Shown: piece after piece, positions 17,798-53,278 of the stretch | How the letters are laid out: every line of letters begins with the position of its first letter | Numbering within the stretch: position 1 is the first letter of the stretch | Source of the DNA: Protonemura montana | Taxonomy: Eukaryota > Arthropoda > Insecta > Plecoptera > Nemouridae | Length of the DNA stretch: 64,000 bases | Direction of reading: 5' to 3' | Assembly: GCA_947568835.1 (NCBI GenBank) | Contig: OX387609.1 | Location: 12,641,708 to 12,705,707, forward strand | Translations under genes and position numbers: made by a program | Notes under the pieces: generated by a model | Databases searched by the model: none | The model's input: only the letters and a program-made list of their open reading frames with translations | What the model was told of the DNA's origin: nothing

Positions 17798-17829
17798 GTG
17801 TACCGCAAAGACGCGTTTTAATGTTGTTT

Positions 17830-28057: not shown

Positions 28058-30793
28058 CTATTTGAAATATAGGGGATCGTATTGTGTGGTGAAGATGGCC
28101 TTCGGCCGTTTATGTTTAGTTTTTCTGTGTTCGTTATAATGGCCTAAGGATTGAATTAGGGGATTTGGTGAGTCTATGGTTTTATCATAAAATTTATTAG
28201 CTAGTTTTTGAGCAAAGACTATTAGTGGATCTATCTTTAGTTCGTCATGCAGTGTGTCATTACGGGTGCCCCTGGGGGCTTTAGTGATGATTCTCAGACA
28301 TTTGTTTTGAATTATTTGTAATTTACGTATGTGTCGTTTGTCAGCCCCACCCCACACAGCCGATGAATATGACATCACAGGTCTAATTAATGTCTTGTAG
28401 AGCAGAAGGCCTTTTTGTTGGCTTAGGGCTGACTTTTGATTTAGGAGGGGGTAAAGCTCGGCAAGTCTGCCATATGCTCTACCTCGCATTTTGTTGGCGT
28501 GTTCACCAAACGTCAATCTAGTATCAAGATGAACTCCCAGATACCTGACGACAGGTTTCCAGTCTATTTTTACTGCAAAAAGGTGAGGCCGGGTAGTGGG
28601 TTTACTGGTGCCCGGTCTGCGGCCAGTAAATAAAATCGCTTCGGACTTGGCTACGTTAATTTTAACCCTCCATTTGCGATACCAATCTTGTAGATCGTCT
28701 AGTCCTTCCTGTAGACAGCGCGTGAGGCATGCTATCGACGGGGAGGTTCTATAGATCACTGTGTCGTCAGCGTAGATGCCAATCTCGGCGTTACTGGGTT
28801 TTGGAATGTCGTTGATGAAGATATTGAATAGAACTGGAGCCAGTATAGCGCCTTGAGGCACGCCGGCTGCGATGGGACGGATCGACGAGTGTTCGTTTTT
28901 AACGTTGACCACGAAGGATCTGTTAGTTAGGTATGATTTTATGAGGTGCACGTACCGGGCCGGAAGTAGAGTGTCAATCAACTTGAATAACAAACCCTCG
29001 TGCCAGACCCTGTCGAAAGCTTTCTCGACATCTAAAAACACGGCACCGGTGACATGTCCCCGGCTAAAACCTTTGGTGATGTGTTCTGTGAATCTGATGA
29101 GTTGGTGATCTGTGCTGTGTTTAGCTTTAAAGCCGAATTGTTCATGTCTGATGCTTTTGTGATGATTAAAGTGTGCAAGCAGCCGTGCTTGTATTACTTT
29201 CTCTGTTATTTTACTGAGCGAGCTGAGAAGGCTGATTGGGCGGTGATTGCCTGGGAGTTTGTGATCTTTATTTGGTTTAGGAAAAGCTAGTATTTTGGCA
29301 ATTTTCATGGCACTGGGAAAGTGCATGAAAAGTATGATATTATTAATTATGTATGCAATAAATTCTATGGCCCTATCAGGAAGATTAGAAATCGCTATGT
29401 TAGAGATATTATCGAGGCCTGGGGCCTTTTTAGGGTGAAGTTTTTTAATTATGTTTTTTATTTCGGCGGTGTTTGTTTTGTGAAATTCGCTGTCTACTGG
29501 TTTAAGCAAGAAGTTATTGACTTTATTGTTTACCGTTGTTATTTGTGTGACGCATTTAGGCTCTTCGTTCGGCTGAAATGTCTGCTCAAGGGTGTCAGCT
29601 AGCACGTTAGCTTTATCGCTGTCTGTGTATGCGATCCCATTTACACCTTGCAGTGGTGGGATAGCATGCGCCTTTCGCGTCAAGGCACCCGTGAGTTTCC
29701 ATAACGACCGATCTTGAGGGTTGATTTGACTGATTTTATTTTCCCATTGTGTGTGATTGTGTTCGGCCACGTCGGTTTTAATCTGTTTAACTAGGCGGTT
29801 TACCATTGTTTTAAGAACTGGTTTTCTGACTTTTAGGTAAAGTTTTCTGCATTGATCTTTAAGTTTGATATTATCCAGGATTTCCTGGGGTAATTTGGTT
29901 TTAAAAAATTTAGGTTTGTTGAGTGGAATATTTGAATTCATGGCTGTCTGCAAGACTGCCGTGAAGCGATTTACATGTAATTCTATGTCTTCGGTGTTTT
30001 TAATAACTTCAAAGTTGTCCAGCTCGCTGTTGATCTCGGTTCTGTACGAGTCCCAGTCTGCTTTCTTATAATTGAGAGTTGGTCTTGGAGTGTTGTATGT
30101 TGTGTGTGCGTCAAAGTCAATCAAGACTGGGACGTGATCAGAGTTGAGTTTAGTTAGTGTTTTGATGTCAAAATTGAGAATGATGTTTTTTACTAGAGCA
30201 ACGTCAAGAACATCCGGCTTGACTTTGAGGTTGTGAGAGTAAAAGGTAGGATTAAACGGTGCAATGACAGAGTATGATTTTTTATTTGCGTGAGCAAGTA
30301 GGATTTTTCCATTTTGATTGTTAAGCCGACTGTGCCAGTTGGTGTGTTTACAGTTTAGATCTCCTGCTATAACGATTCTCTTGCCCAGCTTTAGCAATAG
30401 ATCGATATCTTGAGTGACAAGTTTGATTTGCGGTGGTTTGTAAGCTGCTATTATCGTTGTTAGTTTGCCATTCAGCTTGGCTTGAATTCCCGTGGCTTCT
30501 AGTGATTTTAGTGCTGGTATTGTTATTTCGTGGTGTTTAATGCTTGATTTGATAAGAATGGCTGTGCCGCCTGCTGCTTTTTTATTTTTAGTTCTGTCTG
30601 ATCGATAGGTTACGTATTGACTGATTTTAAGCTTGGATTTAGGCCCTAGGTGTGTCTCGTTTAAAAGTGCAATACCTATGTCCTCATCTAGCAGAAGAAG
30701 TTCTAGTTCAGCTTTTTGAGCTGTGACCCCATTACAATTCCAAAATATTAGTCTGCCGGAGGCCGGAGAGGAGAGGAGTGTTGTGGAAGTCAC
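28058..30793 (-). CDS. Jockey LINE ORF2: endonuclease and reverse transcriptase
   Basis: A 911-codon frame. Residues about 14-228 form an AP-type endonuclease: 'FWNCNGV' (18-23), Glu in NETHL (45-49), GDLN (144-147) and the closing SDHVPVL (218-224). The RT spans about 490-760, with 'NHRPISLLSSLSKITEKV', 'FLDVEKAFDRVW' (first Asp, 586-597), 'GVPQGAILAPVLFNIFINDI' and the catalytic YADD at 674-677. The C-terminal LGVHLD region and Trp/His/Cys-containing tail are typical. The frame overlaps the end of ORF1 by 4 bases and has no ATG there; it opens with GTG or continues from a TAA about 45 bases upstream. ORF2 is therefore probably made by frameshifting or reinitiation. All catalytic residues appear present. 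Confidence 0.92.
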   Translation of the reverse strand: MTSTTLLSSPASGRLIFWNCNGVTAQKAELELLLLDEDIGIALLNETHLGPKSKLKISQYVTYRSDRTKNKKAAGGTAILIKSSIKHHEITIPALKSLEATGIQAKLNGKLTTIIAAYKPPQIKLVTQDIDLLLKLGKRIVIAGDLNCKHTNWHSRLNNQNGKILLAHANKKSYSVIAPFNPTFYSHNLKVKPDVLDVALVKNIILNFDIKTLTKLNSDHVPVLIDFDAHTTYNTPRPTLNYKKADWDSYRTEINSELDNFEVIKNTEDIELHVNRFTAVLQTAMNSNIPLNKPKFFKTKLPQEILDNIKLKDQCRKLYLKVRKPVLKTMVNRLVKQIKTDVAEHNHTQWENKISQINPQDRSLWKLTGALTRKAHAIPPLQGVNGIAYTDSDKANVLADTLEQTFQPNEEPKCVTQITTVNNKVNNFLLKPVDSEFHKTNTAEIKNIIKKLHPKKAPGLDNISNIAISNLPDRAIEFIAYIINNIILFMHFPSAMKIAKILAFPKPNKDHKLPGNHRPISLLSSLSKITEKVIQARLLAHFNHHKSIRHEQFGFKAKHSTDHQLIRFTEHITKGFSRGHVTGAVFLDVEKAFDRVWHEGLLFKLIDTLLPARYVHLIKSYLTNRSFVVNVKNEHSSIRPIAAGVPQGAILAPVLFNIFINDIPKPSNAEIGIYADDTVIYRTSPSIACLTRCLQEGLDDLQDWYRKWRVKINVAKSEAILFTGRRPGTSKPTTRPHLFAVKIDWKPVVRYLGVHLDTRLTFGEHANKMRGRAYGRLAELYPLLNQKSALSQQKGLLLYKTLIRPVMSYSSAVWGGADKRHIRKLQIIQNKCLRIITKAPRGTRNDTLHDELKIDPLIVFAQKLANKFYDKTIDSPNPLIQSLGHYNEHRKTKHKRPKAIFTTQYDPLYFK

Positions 30794-32412
30794 ACAAGGA
30801 TTTGCACGGCTTCTACGACAAACTGTAGGGTGGCCATTGATAAAGCTTGGTTATCGGAGGTGGGATTCTTTAGCTTCATTTGAAGAAGCTCTAATCCTCT
30901 CTTGATGAGAGAGGAGATTGCTGATGCTGAGGGCAGGTGCTCTGATGGAGCCAAAACTTGTTCGCAGGCAGCACTGCGCATGAAGCTAGTATTCGGGGTC
31001 TGGTTCGAGATTGGTTTTGACGAAACCTTCTCTCGTTGGGGTTTTGGCTGCTGAGTCTGATGGACTCTTGGCCGGGCAACTGGCTTAGGGCGGGCTGCCG
31101 CAGGGGCTGGCTTTGTTGCTGCTGTTGGTGGCGATGCTACCGGGGCCTCTGGGGTTGGAATTGGGTCAGGAATGGCTCTGTCCCAAGCGTTATGCGCCGG
31201 GGGCGGTGCCGGGATGAATTTTGGAGTATCAGTAGCAGCAGTCTGCTTGACCTGGGGCTTGGGCTTAGGGCCCAGGAGTCTAGCTTTATGGGCGACGGAA
31301 GCGGCTTTGAATGCCGGGCAGGCGCGGTAGGATGCTGTGTGCCGCTCATTACAATTAGCACACGTTGCAGGAATAGTCAGGTCGGATTTGGTGCAAGTGT
31401 TGGTGTGGTGAGCACCAGCGCACTTGACGCACCGGGGATGGGCGCTGCAACCGCTGGTTACATGCCCGAACCGACAACAGTTGTGACACTGTCGTGGTCC
31501 GCTGGGGCCGCGGTACGCTTCCACGATTACCCTCATGTGGAGTAAAGTCCGGAGATTGTAAATCTCCGGCGTGGTCGCGCAGTCTCGCAGTTCCACGAGG
31601 AACATGGGGATGGGTATCTTGCGGTAATTGCGCATTGCTGCAACATTTACTACTTCAAAACCCTGGGTGAGGAGATCCGCCTTGATTTCCTCCGTCGGTG
31701 TTAGCTCCATCAAGTTGCGGATGACAACTTTGATGGTTTTGTCAGAGAGGGTGCGGAACACAAAGAATTCAATCCCCTCTGACTTGAGGAAATTGGAAGT
31801 CGTGTGGTAATCGGACTCATTAGAGGTCTGGATCGAGACTCGGACCTTGATTTCGAGAGAGCCCGGCGGGCCCCTCTTATCAGTTCCTCGCCTGGTAAGC
31901 ATCGGGGGGGTGTTCAGTTTGCCTGCAAGCCTCCGTGCAAACGAGGAATGATTAAAGGATTCGGGAAAGAATCCAGTAATGGCGGGAATTTGGCGTTTTT
32001 TAGGCGCCTGGGTTGACGGAGTAGACACCGGGCTGGGAGAGCCGGTGTCCATAGGAGTGGTGGCATCATGCGAGGAGGAGGCAACGGCCTTATCGGTCGT
32101 TGCTGGCGGCACGATTTGTCCGAGGACAATTGAAGGTGCAGCCTTCTTAACGGCCGCAAGCAGCGACCGTGCTTCGTCTGGTGACAGACGTTTCTTTCCC
32201 CGCTGTGGAATTGACGCCACAGAGCGGGGATTGAAAGTGGCTGAAGGCCCATTTTTGAGTGAGACAGTTCGTCGTCTTACCTTAGTCCATTCGGCTGCGT
32301 CGGCCGAGGCGTCGGTCGAAGGAGCAGCGAACTGCAATTCGACGACTGTCCCAGCGGTCACAGCGTCGGGCTCAGCTAGGACGTCGGGCGGACCCGGTCC
32401 TCGCACGGACAT
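30790..32412 (-). CDS. Jockey LINE ORF1: gag-like nucleic-acid-binding protein
   Basis: The frame is open from 32526, but the first ATG is at 32412, giving 540 codons. Order: a Pro/Ser/Ala-rich N-terminus; a PRE_C2HC-type region ('IKVVIRNLMELTPTEEIKAD' and following 'GFEVVNVAAMRNYRK'); then three Cys/His knuckles starting at 'CHNCCRFGHVTSGC', 'CVKCAGAHHTNTC' and 'CANCNERHTASYRAC'; and a long disordered Pro/Lys-rich C-terminus. ORF1 proteins coat the element's RNA for retrotransposition. It ends TGA at 30790-30792, inside the start of ORF2. Confidence 0.9.
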   Translation of the reverse strand: MSVRGPGPPDVLAEPDAVTAGTVVELQFAAPSTDASADAAEWTKVRRRTVSLKNGPSATFNPRSVASIPQRGKKRLSPDEARSLLAAVKKAAPSIVLGQIVPPATTDKAVASSSHDATTPMDTGSPSPVSTPSTQAPKKRQIPAITGFFPESFNHSSFARRLAGKLNTPPMLTRRGTDKRGPPGSLEIKVRVSIQTSNESDYHTTSNFLKSEGIEFFVFRTLSDKTIKVVIRNLMELTPTEEIKADLLTQGFEVVNVAAMRNYRKIPIPMFLVELRDCATTPEIYNLRTLLHMRVIVEAYRGPSGPRQCHNCCRFGHVTSGCSAHPRCVKCAGAHHTNTCTKSDLTIPATCANCNERHTASYRACPAFKAASVAHKARLLGPKPKPQVKQTAATDTPKFIPAPPPAHNAWDRAIPDPIPTPEAPVASPPTAATKPAPAAARPKPVARPRVHQTQQPKPQREKVSSKPISNQTPNTSFMRSAACEQVLAPSEHLPSASAISSLIKRGLELLQMKLKNPTSDNQALSMATLQFVVEAVQILV

Positions 32413-32589
32413 CCTCGTGTCAGGTAATAGACGGAGGGTTGGTCGCAGGTAGAGATTCTCGAAGGCAAGCGTGGCTCGGAATATCGGAAGCACTGGCGAC
32501 GCTTGGCGTCCTTTATCTGTTGGCAACCCGAGAACTTAGTCCGTTGTTTGCCGGTGACGTTTGGGATGAAATGGCTTGGCACTCAATGC

Positions 32590-34430: not shown

Positions 34431-37004
34431 TTATCCTCCTAATCCACCCATCATAGCCGCTGGATCAAACTCACCCTTAGATGGGCTACCACCCTTACCA
34501 GGCGCACCTCCACCCATTAAACCGAGTAAAGCACCTATATCAAGACCACCTTTACCACCCTTACCACCCACTAGACTGCCCATCAAAGCCCCTAGATTTA
34601 ATCCACCATTAGAAGAGCTACCACCCTTACCAGGTGCACCACCCCCTACACCACCCATCAAAGCCCCTAGATCGAATCCACCCTTACCAGGCGCGCCTCC
34701 ACCCATTCCACCGAGTAAAGCACCTATATCAAGACCATCTTTACCACCTTTACCACCTCCTAGACCACCCATCAAAGCCCCTATATCGAATCCACCCTTA
34801 GAAGGGCTACCACCCTGACCAGGCGCGCCTCCACCCATTCCACCGAGTAAAGCACCTATATCAAGACCATCTTTACCACCTTTACCACCTCCTAGACCAC
34901 CCATCAAAGCCCCTATATCGAATCCACCCTTAGAAGGGCTACCACCCTGACCAGGCACGCTTCCACCCATTCCACCGAGTAAAGCACCTATATCAACACC
35001 ATCTTTACCACCCTTACCACCCCCTAGACTGCCCATCAAAGCCCCCAGATCGAATCCACCCTTAGAAGGGCTACCACCCTGACCAGGCACGCCTCCACCC
35101 ATTCCACCGAGTAAAGCACCTATATCAGGACCATCTTTACCACCCTTACCACCTCCTAGACCACCCATCAAAGCCCCTAGATCGAATCCACCGTTAGAAG
35201 GGCTACCACCCTGACCAGGTGCACCACCCTCTAGACCGCCCATCAAAGCCCCTAGGTCTAATCCACCCTTAGATGGGCTACCACCCTTACCAGGCGCGCC
35301 TCCACCCATTCCACCGAGTAAAGCACCTATATCAAGACCATCTTTACCACCCTTACCACCTCCTAGACCACCCATCAAAGCCCCTATATCGAATCCACCC
35401 TTAGAAGGGCTACCACCCTGACCAGGCGCACCACCCCCTAGACCACCCATCAAAGCTCCTAGATCGACCCCCCCTTTCCCCGGTTCAGACCCTCCATGCG
35501 CTCCACCAGTCAATAGGTCGAACTTCCCGCTGTCTGGACTCCCAACATCGCCGGGGATGAGAGTCTTCATCAGCTTCGTGACACCCGCGATGCTTGCCGT
35601 GGTGCCGTTGCCAAGGAAACGCTCTCCCTTGCCGATTACCTCCAATATGTGCCCTACGTCACGTGTGTTGTTCTTTGTGTTCTCTCTGACAAACTTCTTA
35701 AGCTTCTTGATATTCTTCTTGGTGGTCCCCGTCGCTTCGGTAAGAGCGGACAAAATATGATTCGAGTAGAATTTAAAATTCTTCGTCGTCAGTTGACCGG
35801 ACTTTTTCTTGAGCGCCGCCGTGGTTGCGTTCCGTACGACGGCGACGAAGGTGTTGAGGGACGGGACTTCTGGGTTGACGCCCGACTGGATGCTCTTGAG
35901 AACGAGCGGCATCAGTTCTGAGAGGATTGTCGACTCGTCGACCGGGTAAGTCGTGTCGCTGACGACGGGGGTTGCGAGCAAAACTGCCAGGACCGCTGGA
36001 AGTTTGGAGAGAGAACGTTTTAGAAGACTGATGGGTGCCAGTCGATAAAGCGGAGTAATTTCTTTGTACCGAAGAAGCTGGTTAAGGCTAGAAACAAAAC
36101 GGATCGGTGGTCATCCATGAAGAAGTTAAACTTAACGTAAGATTTGTTAGGCGTGCCACTCAGTAGGATAGTTGCAAGATAAAGGTTGTCACTACATATT
36201 TTGAGACATAATAATGACTTGCAGTCCTCGCCGCAGACCACAGAAACAATGGTGTGCACTTGCAATTCTAAATTACTGGAGTAGGTTTTTCGAGACACCT
36301 TCAAAACAAAATCAATTGTGTTGCTGGCAGGTTGGATTCTCAACCTAATTGTGGTAATTGTTTCGCATTGCGAGCCTAAAGATTCCTGATGAGTTTATCT
36401 CCCTTACATCGAGATCAAGTATTCATTAAATTACAAATGTACTTATAATCAAGCGACCACCGGGTCGCTTTCCAACCAATTTGTTAAGAAACAGACATTT
36501 AAACATTGAAATTGATATGAACCATTGGTGGCGGCTCTCAGGGAACGACTGGTGCTGCCCTTAGAGTACATGTCTTGCACGAGACGGTTGCCAAGACAAG
36601 TGCATCTCGTCTTCTTTATAGAATGGATATAGTCGTGTGAGTTCCTATTGGCCACCCTATTCAAGCACAAAAGTACAAATAATTGCGATACAATCAGCAA
36701 TCATAAATATTAAAATATATTAGTAGCTATGGTGAGAAAAACGTCATAGCAAAACCAAAAATAACTGAAATATAGCCCCGTAAACGGCCCAAAATTGCCC
36801 AATTGTCGAAATCCTGACTAAGGTGTTAAATACAGCAAGGTCCTGAAGAAATATATTTACAAGTGTGGAAAGGTTTGATGATTTCAAGTAATACTTAAAT
36901 GACAAGAAGTGTCCAACGACATGGTCGACCTTCCTTCCTGGCAAAGCTTAGCTCCAGGAGCATGCCAATAACTCACTGCACGTCAGAGCGGCAACGTTCT
37001 TCAT
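34431..37004 (-). CDS. Gene C: secreted Gly-rich structural (silk/glue-like) protein
   Basis: Predicted exons are 36977-37004 (28 nt) and 34431-35995, joined in phase 1 (donor GTGAGT; acceptor CTCTCTCC...TTCCAG), giving 530 codons. The model is supported because the joined N-terminus becomes a clear signal peptide, 'MKNVAALTCTVLAVLLATPV'. Residues about 31-158 form a helical, Lys/Thr-rich domain, including 'SGQLTTKNFKFYSNHILSAL' and KKNIKKLKKFV, homologous to genes A and B. From about 165 to the end come tandem Gly-rich modules: [F/L]-D-[I/L]-GALMGGLGGG and LDIGALLGGMGGG alternate with KGGKDG and APGQGGSPSKGG linkers, repeating every 44 residues. Signal peptide, helical head and repetitive Gly-rich body recall silk-type or adhesive secretions. 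Family membership is not established and no matching named family is recognised. A possible TATAAG lies at 37152-37157. Confidence 0.8.
34440..35470 (-). repeat. 132-bp tandem coding repeat of gene C
   Basis: The coding sequence repeats every 132 bp (44 codons), for example at 34759, 34891 and following. Some units lack one half, which shows two 22-residue sub-modules. High DNA identity between units points to recent unequal exchange. Confidence 0.85.
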
Positions 37005-37399
37005 CTTGGCGACGAGAGACAAGTATAAAGTTGAGGACGGCGTCGACCGTCTGCTTTCCCTGGCCTGGTACGTGTGCCGGTCACCAGTGTTATTACATGT
37101 GCCGTGATAATATTGCCCACATCGCCATTGTCCACCGCGAAGGTCTCTTCACTTATAACAGCGACACGGGGGAGTAATTATTGTCGTTATCTTGTACAGC
37201 GCTCACTCGATAAGACTGTTTACTCGAAAGCTAACTTATCGAGGTGCTCAAAAATGTTTGGCTGGTTTGGACAAATAATTCAAAACTTTGATTACGGCCG
37301 CAGTTTGCAAAGGATCTTATTGCATTGCTGTTTTAGCTAGCTTAGCTGGCTTAGCTTAAAGGTAAAGGCTTGGGAGTAAGAATGGGCCTTGTGGTGGGT

Positions 37400-37420
37400 G
37401 GGGGGGGGGGGGGGGGGGGG
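37400..37420. repeat. Poly-G tract
   Basis: An uninterrupted run of about 20 G in a G-rich stretch. It is quadruplex-prone and may be assembly-sensitive. Confidence 0.9.
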
Positions 37421-37650
37421 TGCGGGGGGAGAGGCTACATTCAAACGGCCGGCAAATGATTGGTCGTGGTTTCATATGGATTTATTCCATCCAACAAAGT
37501 GGATCAGATTCTAAAGAAGACGTGGAATCGTCTCAAGGAACGGGGAGAGCAGTGGAAACATATCCGCGAAATATAAAATGATTTATTATTAGCAAAGTTA
37601 GGCCATGTTTTTCCACTCGCGCACAAAATAACACAAACGCACATTGCCTC

Positions 37651-37990
37651 TTAGCACCAGCAAGCAAAAATAGAACAAAACAGCGTGTTTTGAACATTGA
37701 AAAACCGATCGGATCCCTGCATCACATTCGGGGCTTGGTGACGCTGTCGACGCTCTGAGTGGCCGTCAGCGACCCGTTGGTGACAAACGCCTGGAGGTTG
37801 TCCTAGTTTCCTTGACCGCGTCACGGTCGCGCCACCTGTCTGGACGTCGGCTTGCCCTTGGTCTTCGCTCGCCGCGACCTGGACCTTTGATGCGATCAGG
37901 GCCAGTGGAGGGCGAGGACAGACGTCAGGGTTGCTGATCAACACAGACGTCGTCAAGGCGACGAGCTAGCGATACAATGGTGTCCTCGTA
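37651..37990 (-). pseudogene. Possible decayed paralogue of the Gly-rich gene family
   Basis: Read on minus, the stretch begins 'LVALTTSVLISNPDVC', reminiscent of the signal-peptide end of gene A (AALTTSVDCVP). After an Ala/Gln-rich part, another frame gives 'FVTNGSLTATQSVDSVTK', resembling the SKGKLTQKAVSNLATE block of gene A. It lies between C and A in the same orientation. Frames are broken and matches are short, so this is a tentative reading. Confidence 0.2.
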
Positions 37991-37999
37991 TCATCGATC

Positions 38000-40025
38000 A
38001 TGGCAGAGGCAAAGCAGTTGTCACCCGTTTGACATCTAGTTGATATAGTTGCATGATTTAAACTATTATACGCCGATCTCCTGTCCCGTGTTCCAACAAG
38101 AAAACAATTATCTACCGATTTTGCACATAGCGATTTTGTGCCCAGCCGAAGCCGGGCCTCCAAAAATTGTCTAAAAGACTCGTCATACGTCCATCTCCAC
38201 GGAAATCTTTAGTAAAAGGCGAAAGATTTATTCGTTCTGAAGAGAGACCAGAGTAACCAATGTCAGGTGCAGGCGGCAGGTTTTATTGCCAGGTTTGTTC
38301 GAACACGCCCTAGTGTTAACTCATTTGCGCGACCTCAGCGCCACTAGTCAGCTTCAGTGGAACTATCTCATACCACTTTTACCCCATATAATTGTTTTCT
38401 TTTTCTGTTCTCGATCTGGCGGTCAAACGGTTGCTCTGATTTTGACGAGATTTTCGGGGTACCATTTTGTCTTCTCAACTTCTGACTCCGTGTGCCCTTG
38501 AGTACCTTTTATCAGTCGTAATAGTTTTAAACAAAGCCAAAAAAAAACAAATACAAATACAAATTTAAACGTGTTTTTTTCTACGCTCCAGAATGAACTG
38601 TTCTTCGATTTTTATTAAGAAATCTCACCGATTTGTAGATCAAGTAACTATCATTAACTCTGTACCAGTAATCGTTAGCTATTTTTCAGTGTTGGGATAA
38701 TTTTGTTTTCCTGTAATTTTGTTTTCCATGTTCGCACGCCACAGATTTCGTCCAATCATCTTTCTATGAAAACTTGATCGTAATCACAGACTTGGTCTAC
38801 TTCTTATTTGCGTACAGTAATTCACCACTGACTAATATTAAATGGAGTTCATCCTCAACCGAACGTAAATTTCGTTCGCCGAGCAAAAATAATGTCTTAT
38901 CTGGCTTTTGCATTTCCTTATCGTTTATAATACGTCTGCAAGTCTGCATTCTGAATGTAATGGCACTTTTTAAACCAACAAATGAATAGCAAATCTACTA
39001 ATACCACTGCAACGCTCCCTTAAAGCAGGTTGATCAGAGTGTCCCTACTCAATCCAGATGTAACAGACGCATATTTTAGACACAAGACATTTCCCAGATT
39101 TTAAACCAACACAACGATCGGAACAAACATCCACCAATCAGGGGAGTGAAAACCGCTGAACCTAGGAAAAATCTCAGGTTACAAAATTTTTTTTTGACCA
39201 AATCCACGTTTTCAAAACGACGCCACAAAATTGACCTCCAATTTACCGACTTCCATGAATCCGACCCGAACGGATTCCCGAGAAACTCCTTATCACCACG
39301 TAACCACTTCTTTGTCCCCAAGGCACGGCCGCCTTTGTTGTGTCCACTTAGATTTAATACGCGACTTATCAATCGTGTAGCGTGTTGGCCGTGATTTCCT
39401 CCAAATTGATCCCCAAAATTCCGTCGCCGAGCGCCACGACATTATCTAGCTTTTGTTATCGTTAAATTGCTTGTCGTCATACACCTTCAACCGATAATTA
39501 CTCGGCACGAACCAACTCTATTTCAGAAAAATACAAGCCATGAAAATACCTTGTCGTTGACAAAGTTGGATCCAGTGCATCATTCGACCGATCTGTGCTT
39601 ACAAACGGCCGTGCCTGGCTATAGCTGGCTGGTCACAAGACTAACAAGACCTTACATAGACTTTTCCCAGATTTTCCAGGCTTTCCTAAAGTTAAACAGT
39701 ATTTTCCAGGTTTTTCCAGGCAACTCTTGAACAATCCCATTATTTATCAAACAGATGCAATTAGTGTGAATGAAAGGCTTGAGCAGCTGTCTTTTGTTCT
39801 CTCCAAACAGCTGAAGGGCGAATGTTTTGTCTGATTGCGATCAGATCAAAGTAACCATCTTGGATTCCACGGCCTCCAGTCGACATGCCTGACGCATGCG
39901 TACAAGGTTGACCAACGCGCAGTAGATTGTCTTGTGGCTGTATTTAGGTTTCCAGGAACGGAATGAATCCAACAGGCTTAGGATAACGACTTGTGAGTTC
40001 GTTGATGATCTTTTCTGCCATCAAG
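38000..40025. other. No recognisable gene
   Basis: No ORF with family or exon signature. Pyrimidine-rich 'TTTTCCAGG' repeats near 39665-39722 are the only pattern noted. Confidence 0.4.
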
Positions 40026-40835
40026 TTTCAAGTTTATTTATTTGTCTAGCATTTCATACATTTCTTATAGTAAACAATACTTCAAATAATAAAGTTATTT
40101 TAAATATTTCTAAAACTTAATCTTACACTTGCGGTGTGCACCAGAATGTGTTAATATCGGTGCTACATTTTGTCCATTTGTATTGTTTATTTTCTATTGT
40201 GAAAATAATTACATTCCACGATCGTTGTCACATAAAACAGTAAAAACAGGCTTTGGAAATTGTCAATTGATAATTAAAACTCTTGTGCAATTATTCATTT
40301 AAGTTCATTCACACAATATTTGCAATCATTCAAACTAGTATTTTCTAAGGTGTCATAAAATGAATGCTGAATTAAAAAAACTTTTACCATTCCCTGAAAA
40401 CTTTTCCTGCTAAGTGATTTTTCCTTTATTTTCCAGGGCAGTTTATTGTAGAAAATAGGTCCCATAAAATTCTCATCCTTTCTTCCAATTTCTAACTAGC
40501 TTTTTTTACTCTTACGTCGTCTTTTTTCCTGGTATTTTTGTTGTGAATATTTTGATTCTCTTGAAAAATGGTCTGGTTATCTCGTTCATATAAAATTGTC
40601 TCTAGTATACAAAAGGTAGGTAATGTCAGTGTGTTAAGATCTTTGAACACTTTTCTGCATGTGTCTCTTTTCATAGTTTAACCAAGTGTTTTTATTGCCC
40701 TATTGCTACGCGTAATCGTTAATTTTTGAGTATTTTTCCTAACTTGATGTGAAAGTCTTTTGTACCAGGAAGTAATAATAATTTTATTTTTGACCAGATC
40801 GATTACATTGTGTAACATTGGGCGAGTCATGTTCA
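40026..40835 (-). pseudogene. LINE 3'-end relic, older copy
   Basis: On minus, 'KRDTCRKVFKDLNTLTLP' (near 40660) matches 'KRGTCRKAFKDLNILTLP' of the LINE at 48148-48618. Further down, 'YNKLPWKIKEKSL' is the LPxxIK block of the ORF2 C-terminus. The tail 'GACAAATAAATAAAC' near 40030-40045 matches the 3' end of the element at 58.5 kb. Confidence 0.65.
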
Positions 40836-41470
40836 AAATTTTTTTTTTTTTTTTTGACTGTCTGTAAACAAGCTTTTATATAAATACAGATACATGAAAA
40901 AAGATTCATAAAATATATCACAAAATTGTCTTACAGTGTGGATATATCGTAGAATTTCTTTTAGGGAATAAAAGCAATGTTCTAACAAGAATTATGTAAG
41001 TTTTACTGAAAAGTCTTGTTTGTTTAATCTGGTTTTTAAGATGTTCGGTAGTTTATTAAAGATGACTATCCCATCAGAGACAGGACTTTTAATCACACTA
41101 GTCTGTGCTGTTAGATTTATTTCCACGTTACCTCTTAACAAGTAGTTATGGTTTCCCAAATATTTTTTGACATCATTTCATTGATTGATTTGACATCCAT
41201 CATTTGATGGATCGCTGTGTTGGAAACGCCGGTTCTCTTTAGATCACCGAAGTTAAGCAACACTACGCTGAGTCAGGTATTGAATGGGTGACCATCATAC
41301 ACATGACCATGATACATGATACACATGATGATACACATTACATATAAAAATAGGCTGTGACTACCGTTTCGCTGAGGATATTCACATGTGTCTTCCATTT
41401 TAAATTATCATCTATTTGTATTCCGAGGAAAGGACAATTGTTGGTGCACCAAAGTCTTTTCTTTAATATA
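40836..41470 (-). pseudogene. LINE 3'-end relic with polyA, holding a SINE fragment
   Basis: On minus: 'FLGIQIDDNLKWKTHVNIL' (about 41380-41450, the RT LGxxxDxxLxWxxHI block), then, past an inserted 5S-SINE piece, 'NHNYLLRGNVEINLTAQ', then 'IVIFNKLPNILKTRLNKQDF', ending in polyA (poly-T on plus at 40837-40855). It inserted beside the older LINE end at 40026-40835. Confidence 0.7.
41213..41345 (+). repeat. 5S-rRNA-derived SINE fragment
   Basis: 'GATCACCGAAGTTAAGCAAC' followed by 'GAATGGGTGACCATCATACA' is the 5S-like internal promoter region in sense orientation. It interrupts the LINE relic described above. The 3' body is missing. Confidence 0.7.
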
Positions 41471-41898
41471 TATTTAAGACACTTCCGATGAAATATTTGG
41501 GTGTTACTTGCGATTCAAATTTCATGCGGCAGTCTGTAAAATAATAGCACACCCTTACAACAACAACAAAAAAATAGCATTGTTGCCAAAGGTTGAATAT
41601 TTTCTGAGAGCATCTAACTTATTTGTGTTTCTAGTGTGGTGCACAGGTGTGAAAACATCTTTGGCATTGCCCAATTGTTTGCCCAGAGACAACTTGGTCA
41701 TTTTGTAGATAAGCGTTGAAGTGTTTTACAATGTTCTGTTTTTTTAAAGAGATCCAGCATAAACTGTCTAACAGTTTATTAACAGATGCGTATTTGTTTA
41801 GTCGTGAAATGTGAAGGATCAAACATTGGGATAGAGCAGGTGTGACATGCCGGACTTGGGACAATTCAACTGAGATTTGTTGGAAACAAAATTCATTT

Positions 41899-41904
41899 TT
41901 TATT
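41899..41904 (-). promoter_or_regulatory. PolyA signal of gene A
   Basis: AATAAA on minus, 116 bases past the stop codon. The same signal is conserved in the duplicate at 46247-46252. Confidence 0.7.
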
Positions 41905-42019
41905 GTAACAAATGAAAAACACATACATTAAACAATTTAACCAGAGGAACAAAACTGTAAATGTTAACCAGCACGAGACTGTGATAATTGCTGCACGCAT
42001 GAAGACATGGATAATTCAA

Positions 42020-43763
42020 TTATCCAGCCAAGGCGGCACTCTTTGGGGGACTCATGAAGTTTCCCAACATGGCGCTAAAATTGATCGGTCCACCCTGGCT
42101 AGCACCAGCAGCACCCTGGCTAGGCACTGCCCCTTTAATCCCGCCAATCAGGCTAGAGAAGTCAACACCTTGAGGGGCGCCTGGAAACCCTGAACCTTGC
42201 ACTGCGCCGGCGCCGAATCCGGTCGAGGCACTCGCGGGGTTGACACTCTTCGGCCCCGCGTTGCCGATCATCGACGCGAAGTCCAAGTTTCCGTTGCCGG
42301 GCGCTCCGAGACCCTTGAGGAGCGAGTCGAAATTCATGGCGTTCCCAGCCGCTGGAGCGGCGCCAGGTGTCGCCCCGGGTGCAGCACCCATGAAAGACGC
42401 TCCTGCCGCGCCAAGACCATTGAACATGGAACTGATGCCCTTGGAACCATCAGGTCCTCCAAGGTTGTTGAACATCGAACCAATACTCTTTACTACGTCA
42501 CCGCCACCGAAGCCAGCAAAGCCCCCGCCGAAGCCGCCGAAGGCCGACGACGCCGGCCCCGCCACCTCCGTCGCCGCCGTCAACAACTCCTGCAACACCT
42601 TCGGGGCGCTCGGACTGAGGAACTTGGCGCCCACCCCGACCTGCTTCATGACGCAGTCGATGTTCGTGCAAGGCTTCAGTCCGTTCTTGACCAAGTCCAG
42701 CATCTTTTTCCCGTTCGCCTTGGACGTGTTGCTAGCGGCAACCAGCGCGTTCACCGTTTCGGTGGCCAGATTGGACACGGCTTTCTGTGTCAGCTTCCCT
42801 TTGGAGTCGGTCTGCACGATGTTCGCCTTGACGATGACGTCGGCCAGCTTGTTCAGTCCCGTGTTTTTGGTCGTCGGGGACCGATTTCCGGATAGGCTCT
42901 TCACGAGTTCCGGCAGGATCTTGGCGACGCTTGGTCCGGCAGCTTTGGGAGCGGCGGCTTTGGGAGCGGCGGCTTTGGGGGCGGCGGCTTTAGGCTTGAC
43001 AACAGCGAGAGCCACTGCGCGTGCGTGTCTTGCGTGAGGGACGCAGTCCACGGAGGTGGTCAACGCGGCGGTGAATGCTGGAACACACAGAACGGCGTTA
43101 CTCGGCATTTGTTCTTTGGCTGGGTTGGCATTAATGACACAGTGGGTCGTCACTGTTGAATGTTTCCTTCACAGAAGGCTGAGGAATCAAAGTTCTTGTC
43201 AACTCCTTCTGAGCAACCTGTTGCAGTTGCACATGTGTGGCCGGGACTCTGCGGCTGTCATCCATGCAAGTTTTTTCGCAGCAAAACTTTCATAACTGTG
43301 AACGATTTAAAATTTATAACAATTGAAAGAATGTAGAACTTGAAGAATGTAAAGACAGGTTCGTTTAAAGTGCCTATGTACAAAAACTATATCAATATTT
43401 AAAAAAAAAAATCTGGAGTAATAAGAGAATTGCTTCTTGTGAAGATCCTCTATCCCACCCTGTGATGCTAAAATCTGTGTGCCCAGATAGCTCAGTTGGT
43501 AGACCACCCGACCGGAAATTGGATGGTCCCGGGCTCGTTTCCCGGTTCGGTTGCACATGTTCTCAGTTTAGCTCCCCTACCAAAAATAAGAGAGATTGTT
43601 GTGGGGGCAATGATGGAAAGCGAAGTGGAATTTAAAGATAAAAATAATTTGATAAACAAAATTTCGATCTATTCAAAAAGGTGGACACAAGTGAATCGTG
43701 GAGACTCGGTGCCCACTTCGCGATAAACTCACCGACGGCAAGGAAGAGGCAGCAGAGCTTCAT
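42020..43763 (-). CDS. Gene A: secreted Gly/Ala-rich structural protein
   Basis: Predicted exons are 43733-43763 and 42020-43077, phase 1, intron 655 bases (donor GTGAGT; acceptor TTCTGTGTGTTCCAG), giving 362 codons. Joining replaces a poor ORF start by a signal peptide, 'MKLCCLFLAVAFTAALTTSV'. Then: a His/Arg segment; a KAAAP repeat linker (residues about 40-57); a helical domain (60-183) with 'KGKLTQKAVSNLATETVNAL', KANGKKMLDLVKNGL and two close cysteines (CTNIDC); and a Gly/Ala/Phe-rich tail carrying the motif [V/L/I]-[D/N]-F-x-[S/A]-[L/M]-[L/I]. That motif parallels the FDIGALMGG modules of gene C. The protein ends AALAG. A TATA box and polyA signal flank the gene. A silk, glue or cuticle-like secretion is inferred; no named family is recognised. 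Confidence 0.82.
43480..43640 (+). repeat. tRNA-derived SINE in the intron of gene A
   Basis: 'GCCCAGATAGCTCAGTTGG' (box A) and 'GGGCTCGTTTCC' (box B) form a tRNA-like head. The body, with 'AGCTCCCCTACCAAAAATAA', follows. The anticodon region is not convincing, so this is a SINE and not a tRNA gene. The same insertion exists in gene B's intron, so it predates the duplication. Confidence 0.7.
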
Positions 43764-43835
43764 TATGTCGCCGCTGGTACTCTCGAGCGCAGGTAGGCGA
43801 TATGGTCGTATGGTAGACGGGACTGCTCATCAGGG

Positions 43836-43843
43836 CTTATATA
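43836..43843 (-). promoter_or_regulatory. TATA box of gene A
   Basis: TATATAAG on minus, 73-80 bases upstream of the ATG, within a block conserved in gene B's promoter. Transcription would start near 43805-43812. Confidence 0.75.
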
Positions 43844-43909
43844 TCGGCCCGTGGTAATGATGGCCCATGACGCAAGCTGTCCACGTCGATGAGTGGTGCG
43901 TGTCAGCCC

Positions 43910-45172
43910 CAGTGGCGGTTCGTGGGGCTAAAATGTAAGGAGGCTGGCTGAAATATATATATTTCGTACTTACATGTAAGGATTTCTAGACTCGATAGGT
44001 GAAGTCAATGCGGCGTTCTTTGATGGCCGCAAAGAAGTCGCTGATGCGCTCGTACCACTGTGGCAATATCTCCATTTCTTTGACGAGTGATTTTTCTAAG
44101 CTTATGAGCGCTCGACCAAAAACGTTGCTTGTGCCACACGTTGCTTATGAGCGCAGGAAATAAAACACACGGCCTGCAGAGCAAAGCATTTTTAATTAAA
44201 CTTCCAGTACCAGTAATTCCAGTAATTAAACCAAGCTAAGATTCGGCGTTGGCCGACCAGTAGTTTTAATCCCTACTCTTTCAGCATAATCGCGCTTCGA
44301 TAATGGAAAATCCAGCAGTTGGTCGACTACATTCCGCAATGCCGCCATATTAACATAAACGAACGCAGAAACAAAACCATAACACGTTAGATCACACAAG
44401 TAAAGTACACAGTTGAAGTCTCACACACAATGTATATGTAGTCTTCACATTCACAACAATTACACTAAGCGACAAATAAGCACGTCTTCAGACCTAGCTT
44501 CAACTCGGAGGATGCCGGTATGGGTCTGCATGCGTGCTAGCAACGTGATAAACATTAAACTTACCGACGACTGCTCAAAAGGGAGGGAAGCGTTTGCTTT
44601 GTTTTCCAGTTAAATAAGACCGTTTTAAGTATTGAAATATTAATCACAAATCAATTTCAGAATATCATAGAATATTAATCAACAATATCTAAGATGATTA
44701 ATTTTTTGGTAGAGATTCGTAAGTAGTGAAAATCGCTAAACTGTTATCAGCCAAAATTATAATTCTGTGGCGCGCTATGTTTTCCGATTTCCCTCCCTGC
44801 ATGCCAACGTCGTGCGCAATCGGGAAAAGTTCGCCAATGTTCGTAGCCTGCTCTCGACGTCATACTACACAGTTCCCTGTCCTTCTCTGGGCAGCAGAGA
44901 CCGAGAGAAAGACCACATGGCGCTCCCCTCCCGCCTATATTCTATAGGCGGCTGGTTGTCGTTTGCCTCCCTGGGGATTTCTTCCTCGAGCGAGCTTGTG
45001 ATGGTGTGTTGCAGGTCGTATCACAAACGATCGTAGGGATGAAATACCGCGCCAAATTAAAAAACAGCTCGATTCGAACATTCAACCTTTAAAACACGAT
45101 TGTAAATTCTCTTCTTACCTCCCTTTTTCAGGGAGGCTGTGCCTCCTTTGCCTCATGCACGAACCGCCACTG
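43910..45172. mobile_element. Non-autonomous hAT-type element with 8-bp target duplication
   Basis: The 1263-bp element starts 'CAGTGGCGGTTCGTG' and ends with the near-perfect inverse (CACGAACCGCCACTG). GTCAGCCC is duplicated at 43902-43909 and 45173-45180. The matching place in the duplicate unit (near 49706) has a single GTCAGCCC, an empty site. An 8-bp duplication and CAGxG termini fit the hAT superfamily. No transposase ORF is visible. It sits just upstream of gene A's TATA box (about 66 bp away) and may affect its expression. Confidence 0.88.
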
Positions 45173-45518
45173 GTCAGCCCCCACTTACCAACTTAATCAG
45201 GCTCGAGTGTGGGCAAGGTTTTTAGAAACTAGTTCACAATATTAAATTGGTTGATAATGCTATCGCTACAATCATTGTCTTTTGAAAGGTGGCCCATTCG
45301 TTTATATCGAAGTAAAGACATTTATTTTGTAACAATTACTAGATTTTAGAGTTTTTCAGGAGAAATAACCAGAAAAAAATTCCACTGTCTCTGCTTTCCA
45401 CCAAAATCTTCTAGGGGTCCACGTCAGGGTTAGCACAAGTTCAGAAACATCTTTGGAATTGCCCAATTGTTTGCACAGAGATAACTTGGTACTTATCCTT
45501 TAGTTATTTTGTAGATAA

Positions 45519-46042
45519 TTATTATTATTATTTGTGGTGTTTAACGACGCACTGTTTTGACAACTGGCCGTGCGGCACTGGTCTAATGGCGTCGGTGAAT
45601 GAGTGGATGATGATGAACCTAACCTAGCCTAGAAGGGAGGAGGGGAAACCCGGTGCCGGCACGTAGCCTACTCCTGTCGAAGAGCACCAAGGGGACCACC
45701 GGCTTCACGTCCCTTCCGAAGGATGGTACAACGCGAACAGCAGGATTCCTCCACAAATCCATGCTGTCGAGAGGTTGATAAGCAAGGCGAATGAAGTTGC
45801 TGTACTAACTTTCATCCCTCCAACCTCTCTCCCAAACAGAACTGGTCATGTGTATGATGGTCACCCATCCAATACCTGACTCAGCGCTGTGTTGCTTAAC
45901 TTTCATCCCTCCAACCTCTCTCCCGAACAGAACTGGTCATGTGTATGATGGTCACCCATCCAATTCCTGACTCAGCGCAGTGTTGCTTAACTTCGGTGTT
46001 CTAACGAGAACCGGTGTTTCCAACACGCCAAACCGTTCGGTC
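45519..46042 (-). mobile_element. 5S-rRNA-derived SINE with 14-bp target duplication
   Basis: TATTTTGTAGATAA flanks the element at 45505-45518 and 46043-46056; unit 1 has one copy of this sequence. On minus the element has a 5S-like head (from ACGGTTTGGCGTGTTGG), two tandem 91-bp internal-promoter segments, a unique body and a TAA-repeat tail. The 5S box A (AAGTTAAGCAAC) and box C (GGATGGGTGACC) are clear. Confidence 0.88.
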
Positions 46043-46246
46043 TATTTTGTAGATAAACGTTAAAGTGTTTCACGATATTATGTGTTTTTTTTTTTCAGAG
46101 ATCCAGCACGAACTGTCTAACAGTTTATTAACAGATGCGTCTTTGTTTAGTCGTGAAATGTGAAGGATCAAACATTGGGATAGAGCAGGTGTGACATGCC
46201 GGACTTGGGACAATTCAACTGAGATTTGTTGGAAACAAAATTCATT

Positions 46247-46252
46247 TTATTT
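46247..46252 (-). promoter_or_regulatory. PolyA signal of gene B
   Basis: AATAAA on minus, at the place homologous to gene A's signal. Confidence 0.65.
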
Positions 46253-46522
46253 TGCAACAAATGAAAAACACAGACATTAAACAATTTAACCAGAGAAACA
46301 AAACTGTGTAAATGTGAACCAGCACTCGTGGACTCGCCTCTGTTGCTGATAAATAAATAATAGTTATAATAATTGCTGCAAGCATGAAGACATGGATAGT
46401 TTAATTATCCAGCCAAGGCGGCACTCTTTGGGAGAATGATGTCTCCCAACATGGCGGTAATATTGATCGGTGCACCCTGGCCAGCCCCGCTAGGCACTGC
46501 CTTTTGAAGCCCGGCAATCACG

Positions 46523-49500
46523 CTAGTTATAGTAGGCAAAGGCGTGAATACGGCGTGGCGTCGTCGAATCTTCCACTACGCCGGCGCCGAATCCGAACGT
46601 GGTACTCGTGTGATTGACACTATTTGGCCCCGCGTTGCCGATCGTCGACGAGAAATTCAAGCTTCCGTTGCTGGCAAAGGCTTGAAAAGCGCGGGGCGTC
46701 GTCGAACCTTGCACTGCGCCGGCGCCGAATCCGAACGTGGTACTCGTGTGATTGACACTATTTGGCCCCGCGTTGCCGATCGTCGACGAGAAATTCAAGC
46801 TTCCGTTGCTGGCAAAGGCTTGAAAAGCGCGGGGCGTCGTCGAACCTTGCATTGCGCCGGCGCCGAACGAATACGATATTGGCAAGGAGAGACCACTGCC
46901 ATTGCCACGGCCACTGCCACGGCCACTGCTACTGCCAGTCGAGACACCGTCGTAGGGCGGCGACGCCGCCATCTCCGTCGCCGCCGTGAACAACTCCTGC
47001 AACACCTTCGGGGCGCTCGAACTGAGGAACTTGGCGCCCACCCCAACCTGCTTCATGACGCAGTCGATGTTCGTGCAACGCTTGATTCCCTTCTTGACCA
47101 AGTTTAGCATCTTTTTCCCGTTCGCCTTGGACGTGTTGCTAGCGGCAACCAGCGCGTTCACCGTCTCGTTGGCCAGATTGGACACGGCTTTCTGTGTCAG
47201 CTTCCCTTTGGAGTCGGTCTGCAAGATGTTCACCGTGACGATGATATCGGCCAGCTTGTTCAGTTCCCAGTTTTTGGTCGTCGGGTATCGAGTTCCGGAT
47301 AGGCTCTTCACGAGTTCCGGCAGGATCTTGGCGACGCTTGGTCCGGCAGCTTTGGGAGCGGCGGCTTTGGGAGCGGCGGCTTTAGGGGCGGCGGCTTTGG
47401 GGGCGGCGGCTTTGGGCTTGACAACAACGGGAGCCACTGCGCGTGCGTGTCTTGCGTGAGGGACGCAGTCCACGGAGGTGGTCAACGCGGCGGTGAATGC
47501 TGGAACACACAGAACGGCGTTACTCGGCATTTGTTCTTTGGCTGGGTTGGCATTAATGACACAGTGGGTCGTCACTGTTGAATGTTTCCTTCACAGAAGG
47601 CTGAGGAATCAAAGTTCTTGTCAACTCCTTCTGAGCAACCTGTTGCAGTTGCACATGTTTGGCCGGGACTCTGCGGCTGTCATCCATGCAAGATTTTTCG
47701 CAGCAAAACTTTCAGAACTATGAACGATTTGAAATTAGTAATATAGAACAATTGAACGAATTTAGAACTGAGACAGGTTTGTTGGAAGTGCCTATTAAAA
47801 AAAATATATATATATATATGTACAAAAAATACAAAAAAAAATAGGGAGTAATAAGAGAATTGCTTCTTGAGGGGATCCCCTATCCCACCCCGTGAAGCTG
47901 CAATCTGTGTGCCCGGATAGCTCAGTTAGTAGAGAACCCGACCAAACGCCTACACCTTAACAAATATATAAACAATTATATAAATATAAATGTGACACTG
48001 GCTAACCTGGCTTCTCCTCTGATTTTTTTATTTATTTTTTGTTCTAGGATATCGTTTTTTTGTTTTAATTTTAATTTTAGTTTAAGTTTTAGTTTGATAA
48101 ATTTTCAGTAAAAAAAAAAACAAAAAAAAAACTGTAAATTTGTAAATTTGTTCTATTGTTATTATTATTACAGTGTTCGGTCACATCAAACATCAAATGG
48201 AGTAAAGCATAGCACATTTCTAGGGCTAGAGTTGGACTCAGAGTTAAATTGGAAAATACACATAAGAATAGTTAACAAAGGAGCTAGCGTGGCCTGCTAC
48301 ATGTTAAGAACGTTAGCAAACCAGGTGAATCAATCTACACTAAACATAGTGCATCAAGCTCAAGCTCACTCTATTTTAACCTATGGCATATTAGCGTGGG
48401 GAAGTTCACCCGAATCCCACAAATTGTTCATAAAACAAAAAAAGGCAATACGGATAATGGGTAAAAAGGGGAAGAGGGGAACATGCAGAAAAGCTTTTAA
48501 AGATCTGAATATCCTGACCTTGCCAAGTGCTTTTATTTTGGAAGTAATTTTATTTGTTTATGACAATCCTGGATTATTCCCAAAAAATGAAGAGGTACAA
48601 TATGTGATGAACCGTTGAGTGTAGGTTCTAGGTAGAGAAACCACGTCAATGTTACAGTCTCTGCGTGAAAGATGGCCGCCAAATTAATACCTTACCGAAA
48701 AAAATGCAGAGTATCGGAACGTCACGTTAAGTGGAGCCACTGTCGTATGAAATTTAATTTCGATATTTCTCGTAGGTTACTCGCTTTTGAATATCGTTAC
48801 GTGTTTATCAATCGTTGAGGTAAACATTGATGGAGATTTTTTAAGCATGAAAAGTCACAAAAGCGAGTTAACCTACGAGAAATATCGAAATTAAAATTCA
48901 TACGACAGTGGCTCCACTTAACGTGATGTTCCGGTACTCTGCATTTTTGTCGGTAAGGTAGTCATTTGGCGGCCATCTTTCACGCAGAGACTGTAACATT
49001 GACGTTGTTTCTCTACCTTATCTAGGTGCATCCTACTACAAAAGGCTGCCCTTGCGGCTGAAAAAGGAAACAAGCAGAGATAGTCAAGCATTTTATGATT
49101 ACCTACACATTGTATTTATAGTACTAGCGAATTTTTACATTTTAAAGAATGTGAATTTAAATGTGAAGAATGTTTAAAACCCCAACTAGTGCGATGGTTT
49201 TTATCAATTGACCATTTTTAGTGCTTGTGATAGCAACAATAATGTAATTACGCAAAGGGCATGCACCAAGGGGCAATAAAATGTATTGTAAAAGATAAAA
49301 AATAAAAAATCTGATGGTCCCGGGTTCATATCCCAGTTCGATTGCACATGTTTCCATTCTAGCTCCCCTACCAAAAATAAGAGAGATTGTTGTGGGGGCA
49401 ATGATGGAAAGCGATGTGGAATTTAAAGATAAAATTTGATAAACAAAATTCCGTTGCATGCAAAGCAGAGGACACAAGTGAATCGTGGAGACTCGGTGCC

Positions 49501-49550
49501 TACTTCGCGATAAACTCACCGACGGCAAGGAAGAGGCAGCAGAACTTCAT
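46523..49550 (-). CDS. Gene B: diverged duplicate of gene A, C-terminus altered
   Basis: Exons are 49520-49550 and 46523-47499, phase 1 (GTGAGT; same acceptor as A), 335 codons; the intron has grown to 2020 bases by insertions. Signal peptide 'MKFCCLFLAVAFTAALTTSV', KAAAP linker and helical domain are close to A. The Gly-rich middle of A is replaced by a Ser/Gly/Arg stretch followed by two 46-residue repeats containing 'SNGSLNFSSTIGNAGPNSVN'. The frame ends early: A's C-terminal block (VPSQG...SAALAG) is still present in the DNA at 46405-46522 but in another frame, showing an indel. It may be a functional shorter protein or an early pseudogene. TATA and polyA signals are kept. Confidence 0.7.
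46555..46860 (-). repeat. 138-bp tandem repeat in gene B
   Basis: Unit of 138 bp (46 codons), two full copies plus a partial third. 'CTGGCAAAGG' recurs at 46671 and 46809. Copies are nearly identical, so the expansion is recent and keeps the frame. Confidence 0.9.
47943..49310 (+). pseudogene. 5'-truncated LINE copy inside the gene B intron
   Basis: The open frame 48148-48618 carries 'FLGLELDSELNWKIHIRI' (LGxxxDxxLxWxxHI block), 'LTYGILAWGSS' and 'KKAIRIMGKKGKRGTCRKAF'. After a MITE insertion it resumes with 'YYKRLPLRLKKETSRD' and ends in an A-rich tail at about 49288-49308. It includes only the ORF2 C-terminus. The plus orientation is opposite to gene B. Confidence 0.75.
48622..49027. mobile_element. 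Foldback MITE, family 1
   Basis: The two halves are nearly perfect inverted repeats: from 'AGGTAGAGAAAC' and 'GTTACAGTCTCTGCGTGAAA' on the left to their inverses on the right, including GTGGCTCCACTTAACGT and CGAGAAATATCGAAATTAAA. The short centre contains AACATTGATGGAG. It interrupts the LINE above. A second copy of the family, itself interrupted, lies at 57598-58612. No coding capacity. Confidence 0.85.
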
Positions 49551-51659: not shown

Positions 51660-52355
51660 ATTCTAAAAAATGGGTGAGTCCAATACCTGACCGAGCACAG
51701 TGTTGCTCCAACTTCCTCCAACCTCTCTCCCGAACAGAACTGGTCATGTGTACGATGGTCACCCATCCAATACCTGACCTAGCGCAGTGTTGCTTAACTT
51801 CAGTGATCTTACGAGGACCGGTGTTTCCAACACGGCAAACCGTTCGGTGGACACCCATCCAATACCTGACCCAGCGCAGTGTTGCTTAACTTTCATTCCT
51901 CCAACCTCTCTCCCGAACAGAACTGGTCATGTGTATGATGGTCACCAATCCAATACCTGACCCAGCGCAGTGTTGCTTAACTTTCAGTCCTCCAACCTCT
52001 CTCCCGAACAGAACTGGTCATGTGTATGATGGTCACCCATCCAATACCTGACCTAGCGCAGTGTTGCTTAACTTTCATTCCTCCAACCTCTCTCCCGAAC
52101 AGAACTGGTCATGTGTATGATGGTCACCCATCCAATACCTGACCTAGCGCAGTGTTGCTTAACTTTCATCCCTCCAACCTCTCTCCCGAACAGAACTGGT
52201 CTTGTGTATGATGGTCACCCATCCAATACCTGACCCAGCGCAGTGTTGCTTAACTTTCATCCCTCCAACCTCTCTCCCGAACAGAACTGGTCATGTGTAT
52301 GATGGTCACCCATCCAATACCCGACCCAGCGCAGTGTTGCTTAACTTCAGTGATC
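51660..52355 (-). repeat. Array of 91-bp units from the 5S-derived SINE
   Basis: About seven head-to-tail units with a 91-bp period (for example GTCATGTGTATGATGG at 52018, 52109, 52291). Each contains the 5S-like box C (GGATGGGTGACC) and box A (AAGTTAAGCAAC) in reverse complement. A complete 5S-like 5' end (CCGAACGGTTTGCCGTGTTGG on minus) occurs once inside, near 51815-51855, so at least two insertions or a rearranged array are present. SINE body and tail are missing here. Confidence 0.85.
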
Positions 52356-52714: not shown

Positions 52715-53278
52715 TTATTTATTATTTATTTTATTTGTGGTGTTTAACGAAGCACTGTTTTGACATCTGGCCATGCGGCACTGGTCTAATGGCGTCGCTG
52801 AATGAGTGGATGATGATGAGGATGATGATGAACTTAGCCTAGCTTAGAAGGGAGGAGGGGAAACCCTTTGCCGGCACGTAGCCTACTCCTGTCGAAGAGC
52901 ACCAAGGGGACCACCGGCTTAGTGTCCCTTCCGAAGGACGGTACAACGCGAACAACAGGATTCCTCCACAAATCCATGCTGTCTAGAGGTTGATAAGCAA
53001 GGCGTATGAAGTTGCTGTACTAACTTTCATCCCTCCAACCTCTCTCCCGAACAGAACTGGTCATGTGTATGATGGTCACCCATCCAATACCTGACCCAGC
53101 GCAGTGTTGCTTAACTTTCATCCCTCCAACCTCTCTCCCGAACAGAACTGGTCATGTGTATGATGGTCACTCATCCAATACCTGACCCAGCACAGTGTTG
53201 CTTAACTTTCATCCCTCCAACCTCTCTCCCGAACAGAACTGATCATGTGTTGCTCCAGCGCAGTGTTGCTTAACTTTT
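52715..53278 (-). mobile_element. 5S-rRNA-derived SINE, long body with three 91-bp units
   Basis: On plus it starts with the A/T-rich tail (TTATTTATTTTATTTGTGGT), then the unique body ('GCCGGCACGTAGCCTACTCC') and three internal-promoter units up to about 53275, the last shortened. The 5S-like 5' end is missing. Same family as 45519-46042. Confidence 0.8.

Follow-up and report, generated by a model that had tools for sequence, protein, structure and literature searches.

Secreted families of restricted occurrence are nothing unusual in arthropods, and described systems of several kinds resemble, in one respect or another, the family reported here. Insect silks and glues (lepidopteran and caddisfly fibroins, coiled-coil silks, glue proteins), share with it secretion, which is predicted for the family, and, in some members, low-complexity repeats. 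Known fibroins are much larger than the seven family proteins, and we know of no insect silk or glue that carries the same conserved N-proximal domain (henceforth the head); Pfam and protein searches brought up none either. The insect pheromone-binding proteins (PBP/GOBP) are small, secreted and helical, as the family is predicted to be, and insect pheromone/odorant-binding proteins have six conserved cysteines. The spidroins offer a likeness of layout, with a signal peptide leading to a helical domain of about 125–130 residues (the N-terminal domain, Pfam Spidroin_N, PF16763) and then to repeats, an order that recurs here in one gene, C. In aciniform and tubuliform spidroins (9lie, 9lif, 2lyi, 2k3n, 2k3o, 7dfe) the silk repeat consists of the domain itself, whereas the head of the present family occurs once per protein.

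The locus lies in a window of 64,000 nucleotides, the whole stretch of DNA analysed here (contig C12, 12,641,708–12,705,707, in a source genome of 258.5 Mb and 34 contigs). It comprises three genes, whose coordinates and models, as first read from the letters, were upheld:

37004–36977 + 35995–34431, minus strand: gene C, product of 530 aa
36977–37004, minus strand: gene C exon 1 (predicted), 28 nt, MKNVAALTC + 1 nt
34431–35995, minus strand: gene C exon 2, remainder of the signal peptide, head and 15-copy Gly-rich repeat body (open frame and acceptor)
35544–35954, minus strand: gene C head domain, residues ~24–160 (alignment and leave-out profile)
43763–43733 + 43077–42020, minus strand: gene A, product of 362 aa
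43733–43763, minus strand: gene A exon 1, 31 nt, MKLCCLFLAV + 1 nt
42020–43077, minus strand: gene A exon 2, end of the signal peptide, Lys/Ala/Pro linker, head and Ala/Gly-rich body with four tail motifs
42551–42940, minus strand: gene A head domain, residues ~57–186 (alignment, structure model and leave-out profile)
49550–49520 + 47499–46523, minus strand: gene B, product of 335 aa
49520–49550, minus strand: gene B exon 1, 31 nt, MKFCCLFLAV + 1 nt
46523–47499, minus strand: gene B exon 2, laid out as in A, with a 145-residue body of 16.6% Gly without the tail motif
46961–47347, minus strand: gene B head domain, residues ~62–190 (alignment and leave-out profile)

All three genes are built alike, from a short coding exon 1, a phase-1 intron with a GTGAGT donor (655 nt in A, 2020 nt in B, 981 nt in C) and a single long exon 2, and their spliced products are predicted to open with a hydrophobic, signal-peptide-like stretch. 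Of the traits that an earlier note had listed as common to A, B and C, the orientation and the 28–31-nt first exon with its phase-1 intron were confirmed, and the start of a signal peptide in exon 1 was borne out as a prediction, from the hydrophobic N-termini and the splitting of their coding by the intron. Exon 1 of gene C is the sole 28/31-nt phase-1 candidate within 2.2 kb upstream of its acceptor. TATA-like boxes lie 80 nt (A) and 98 nt (B) before the ATG; the pattern that detects these two found none for gene C.

Searches of the source genome with individual heads placed the three genes in a family of at least seven members, of 211–530 aa, organized in three clusters: C/A/B in the window, D and E on contig C15 (about 4 kb apart, both on the plus strand) and F and G on contig C5 (about 29 kb apart, both on the minus strand). 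The heads of C, F and G each retrieved the identical seven loci, with worst E-values of 0.004, 0.002 and 0.0001, respectively. With the head of A, five of the seven were found at E < 0.01, D and E being missed, together with an extra weak match on C3 (E 4.6); that of E gave five at E < 0.01 and B at E 2.3, missed A and added two weak extras (E 3.2 and 5.6). These weak extra matches were left out of the count, which is a lower bound. Both C15 members, E (L002) and D (L003), end in NFGR, a Gly-Arg ending that may signal amidation or may be shared by chance.

The gene design recurs along with the head. We scanned 1.1–8 kb upstream of each acceptor (19.2 kb in total for the seven genes), and every gene had exactly one open ATG stretch of 28 or 31 nt ending in GT[AG]AG; the background in the window, both strands included (128 kb), was six such candidates, of which three are those of A, B and C. 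The proteins begin with MKNAVLLGF in D, MKGVLLSGF in F, MKGALLLGL in G and MKNVAALTC in C, and hydrophobic N-termini are present in all seven proteins (maximum 11-residue mean 2.4–3.5). One might object that the models derive from sequence reading alone and that the tail of B may be decaying, so that what we describe would be chance open frames and splice sites over repeats rather than genes, but the sevenfold recurrence of head and first-exon design on three contigs speaks strongly against this, and we find it hardly credible. That a family of at least seven proteins, predicted to be secreted, exists is in our view nearly certain; the family is real and probably unnamed.

Homology of the heads was assessed with leave-clade-out profiles, in which each clade was scored by a profile built without it and compared with 2000 shuffles per left-out sequence. 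The head of C reached 110.8 bits (at most 11.8 among 2000 shuffles), those of A and B 46.1 and 49.2 bits against a profile lacking both (best of 4000 shuffles 13.4), those of E and D 83.0 and 69.9 bits (best shuffle 11.4) and those of F and G 81.1 and 78.1 bits (best shuffle 12.1). For A, B and C, the homologous head of about 125 residues that had been claimed from the letters therefore holds (46.1–110.8 bits versus at most 13.4 for shuffles), and the blocks quoted earlier for C and A were found in the alignment. Compared pairwise, the heads of A and D are not significantly similar on their own (score 59, against a highest score of 72 in 200 shuffles), and the A–E and B–D comparisons are weak, so it is the profiles that carry these three links.

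In a tree of the seven heads, E grouped with D (99/98) and A with B (100/99), while F and G were joined less firmly (88/89) and C stood apart from A and B. Given this separation, the C-A-B cluster is not a single recent expansion. Within it, A and B are the recent pair, with heads 85% identical and DNA 90% identical over about 1 kb that covers the intron and the head-proximal part of exon 2. The dN/dS between their heads is about 1.1, although the changes counted are few (5.5 synonymous, 18.5 nonsynonymous). The stop of gene B (46523–46525) lies within DNA (46369–46671) that can still be aligned to the tail of A; on both counts gene B gives the appearance of a weakly constrained copy.

We then asked whether the head belongs to a described domain. 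No match above the cut-off was obtained in a Pfam scan of three second-exon frames, all seven heads and the whole proteins A, D and E. Among about 5.8 billion predicted proteins, none was retrieved with A (E ≤ 0.1, 8000 scored candidates), with residues 117–290 of E (E ≤ 1, 581 candidates) or with the alignment of all seven heads (E ≤ 1, 5394 candidates); the family is restricted in the sense that it was not found in this collection, in which insect representation may be limited. Against solved structures the head profile gave its lowest E-values with designed helical proteins and showed no convincing relative. The earlier note knew of no named family with such a head and suggested a profile search as a check; the profile searches assigned it to no known family, in agreement with the solved-structure and predicted-protein results. 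The helical character proposed for the head stood as a prediction, in that both head models obtained were helical, with six helices (mean pLDDT 54 and 69, i.e. low to middling confidence). The seven proteins thus share a predicted helical head of about 125 residues that belongs to no recognised family in the libraries searched.

Individual candidates were also examined. The first-ranked Foldseek match of the A head was the Bombyx mori PBP (E 0.43, TM 0.21); a pheromone/odorant-binding identity was rejected, as each whole protein has 1 to 5 cysteines and Pfam gave no PBP_GOBP match. An identity with Spidroin_N was rejected as well: hhalign against four spidroin N-terminal domains gave a probability of 0.2% with one column aligned, and the Pfam profile had no match at E ≤ 10 in the source genome. 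With four aciniform repeats, hhalign returned a probability of 0.6% (E 0.1), i.e. sequence support was absent; the Pfam scan listed no RP1-2 on any of the seven heads, and the one RP1-2 match in the source genome (E 3.3) lay in a frame of simple repeats that is not part of the family. On these results an aciniform/tubuliform repetitive domain was rejected by sequence, and we consider it very improbable that the head is distantly related to such domains or to their fold, which would make the family spidroin-like by descent.

Outside the head the members differ widely. Most add low-complexity sequence, either before the head, as a Lys/Ala/Pro-rich linker of 34–92 residues (A, B, D and E, but not C, F or G), or after it, as a tail, which is extended in C, A and B alone and measures 44–52 residues in D–G. 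Body Gly content falls from 42.7% in C and 24.4% in A to 17.3% in E, 16.6% in B, 13.5% in D, 11.4% in G and 6.7% in F, so a body clearly rich in Gly marks C and A rather than the family as a whole. The earlier note had attributed such a body to each of A, B and C, together with the silk-like plan of signal peptide, helical domain and Gly-rich repeats; the body holds for C and A but not clearly for B, and the plan fits C, with its 15 repeats, and more loosely A. Members D–G do not fit the plan of a signal peptide and a repetitive low-complexity body, F and G having neither a Gly-rich body nor the tail motif.

The tail of gene C contains 15 copies of G-[FLVP]-[DN]-[IL]-G-A-L-[ML]-G, separated by two kinds of spacer. 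As a genome query, these repeats gave five matches at E ≤ 1 (ten candidates scored), every one within gene C itself. A looser form of the motif occurs 15 times in C, four times in A, once each in D and E and not at all in B, F and G, compared with a mean of at most 0.065 in shuffled tails; the single matches in D and E were equalled by 0.75% and 0.55% of shuffles, respectively.

Our preferred reading, which we put forward tentatively, is that these proteins have a structural role as part of a gland secretion or an extracellular coat, be it a glue, a silk-like material or a matrix. The signal peptide, its coding split by the phase-1 intron, would direct secretion; the head might then keep the chain soluble or join chains, and the low-complexity parts would drive assembly into the material. 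In the tail of C, short hydrophobic GALLGG-type stickers, 15 in number, alternate with Gly/Lys/Pro spacers, an arrangement that may serve such assembly. This role is favoured by the hydrophobic N-termini in all seven members, the regular repeats of C, the shared tail motif and the helical head models; it is weakened by the restriction of Gly-rich long tails to C and A, by the small size of the proteins and by the low to middling confidence of the head models.

The deep divergence of the paralogs (the other six heads are 25–31% identical to that of C), the small sizes and the variable low-complexity tails would suit fast-evolving secreted reproductive, eggshell or cuticle proteins, which would be made in accessory glands, follicle cells or epidermis and would form not a thread or glue but a coat or plug; the Pfam scans matched no described family of cuticle or chorion proteins, and we regard this as possible if somewhat unlikely. 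Regular sticker repeats are unusual among Gly-rich antimicrobial proteins, so those of C would be atypical if the family were made up of immune effectors, that is, Gly-rich, net-positive proteins, predicted to be secreted, that bind or kill microbes. All seven members do carry a positive net charge (+9 to +21, G being counted without its first nine residues), and Gly-rich antimicrobial proteins are described in arthropods (PMC12387859); as no known antimicrobial family was matched above the Pfam cut-off, we hold the immune reading to be unlikely.

The proposal of a hitherto undescribed insect system of silk or glue, in which a new helical head has converged on, or shares, the aciniform/tubuliform fold and is joined to sticker-and-spacer Gly-rich tails, strikes us as decidedly doubtful. 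If the proteins do form a material, they would represent a further arthropod origin of silk- or glue-like proteins, with a possible convergence on a spider silk domain fold, and their compact head and sticker-spacer repeats would be short enough for expression in laboratory bacteria. If they do not, the family would still combine secretion with a conserved gene design and with a head that current profile libraries overlook, and both of these features would help annotators to spot such genes in related species.

Other features were recorded around these genes. Between genes C and A, at 38139–38256 (minus strand), U5 spliceosomal RNA is matched with 94.6 bits, and the intron of gene A contains a tRNA-like stretch (43481–43553, plus strand) that is barely above the Rfam cut-off and is not called as a tRNA by ARAGORN, possibly a tRNA-derived repeat. 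Four 5S rRNA-like stretches exceed the Rfam cut-off (41203–41315, 45921–46041, 51729–51847 and 58906–59024); all except the first overlap or adjoin tandem arrays of a 91-base unit, which recurs at 53021–53250 and may belong to a 5S-derived repeat family. A LINE-type retroelement at 28058–32535 (minus strand) comprises a PRE_C2HC zinc-finger frame (30790–32535) and an endonuclease/reverse transcriptase frame (28058–30850) without internal stops, and an uninterrupted frame of 300 aa at 16946–17848 (minus strand) belongs to the Bax1-I family (E 1e-11). In the region 60495–61217 (plus strand) a cytochrome P450 fragment (E 3.8e-13) precedes 6.7 tandem copies of a 68-base unit (60762–61217). Elsewhere in the assembly, contig C34 is a mitochondrial genome of 15,885 bp that is open under the invertebrate mitochondrial code; its proteins look like those of an insect, which the source organism probably is, and its gene order, including the position of tRNA-Leu(UAA) between cox1 and cox2, is that of the pancrustacean ground plan.
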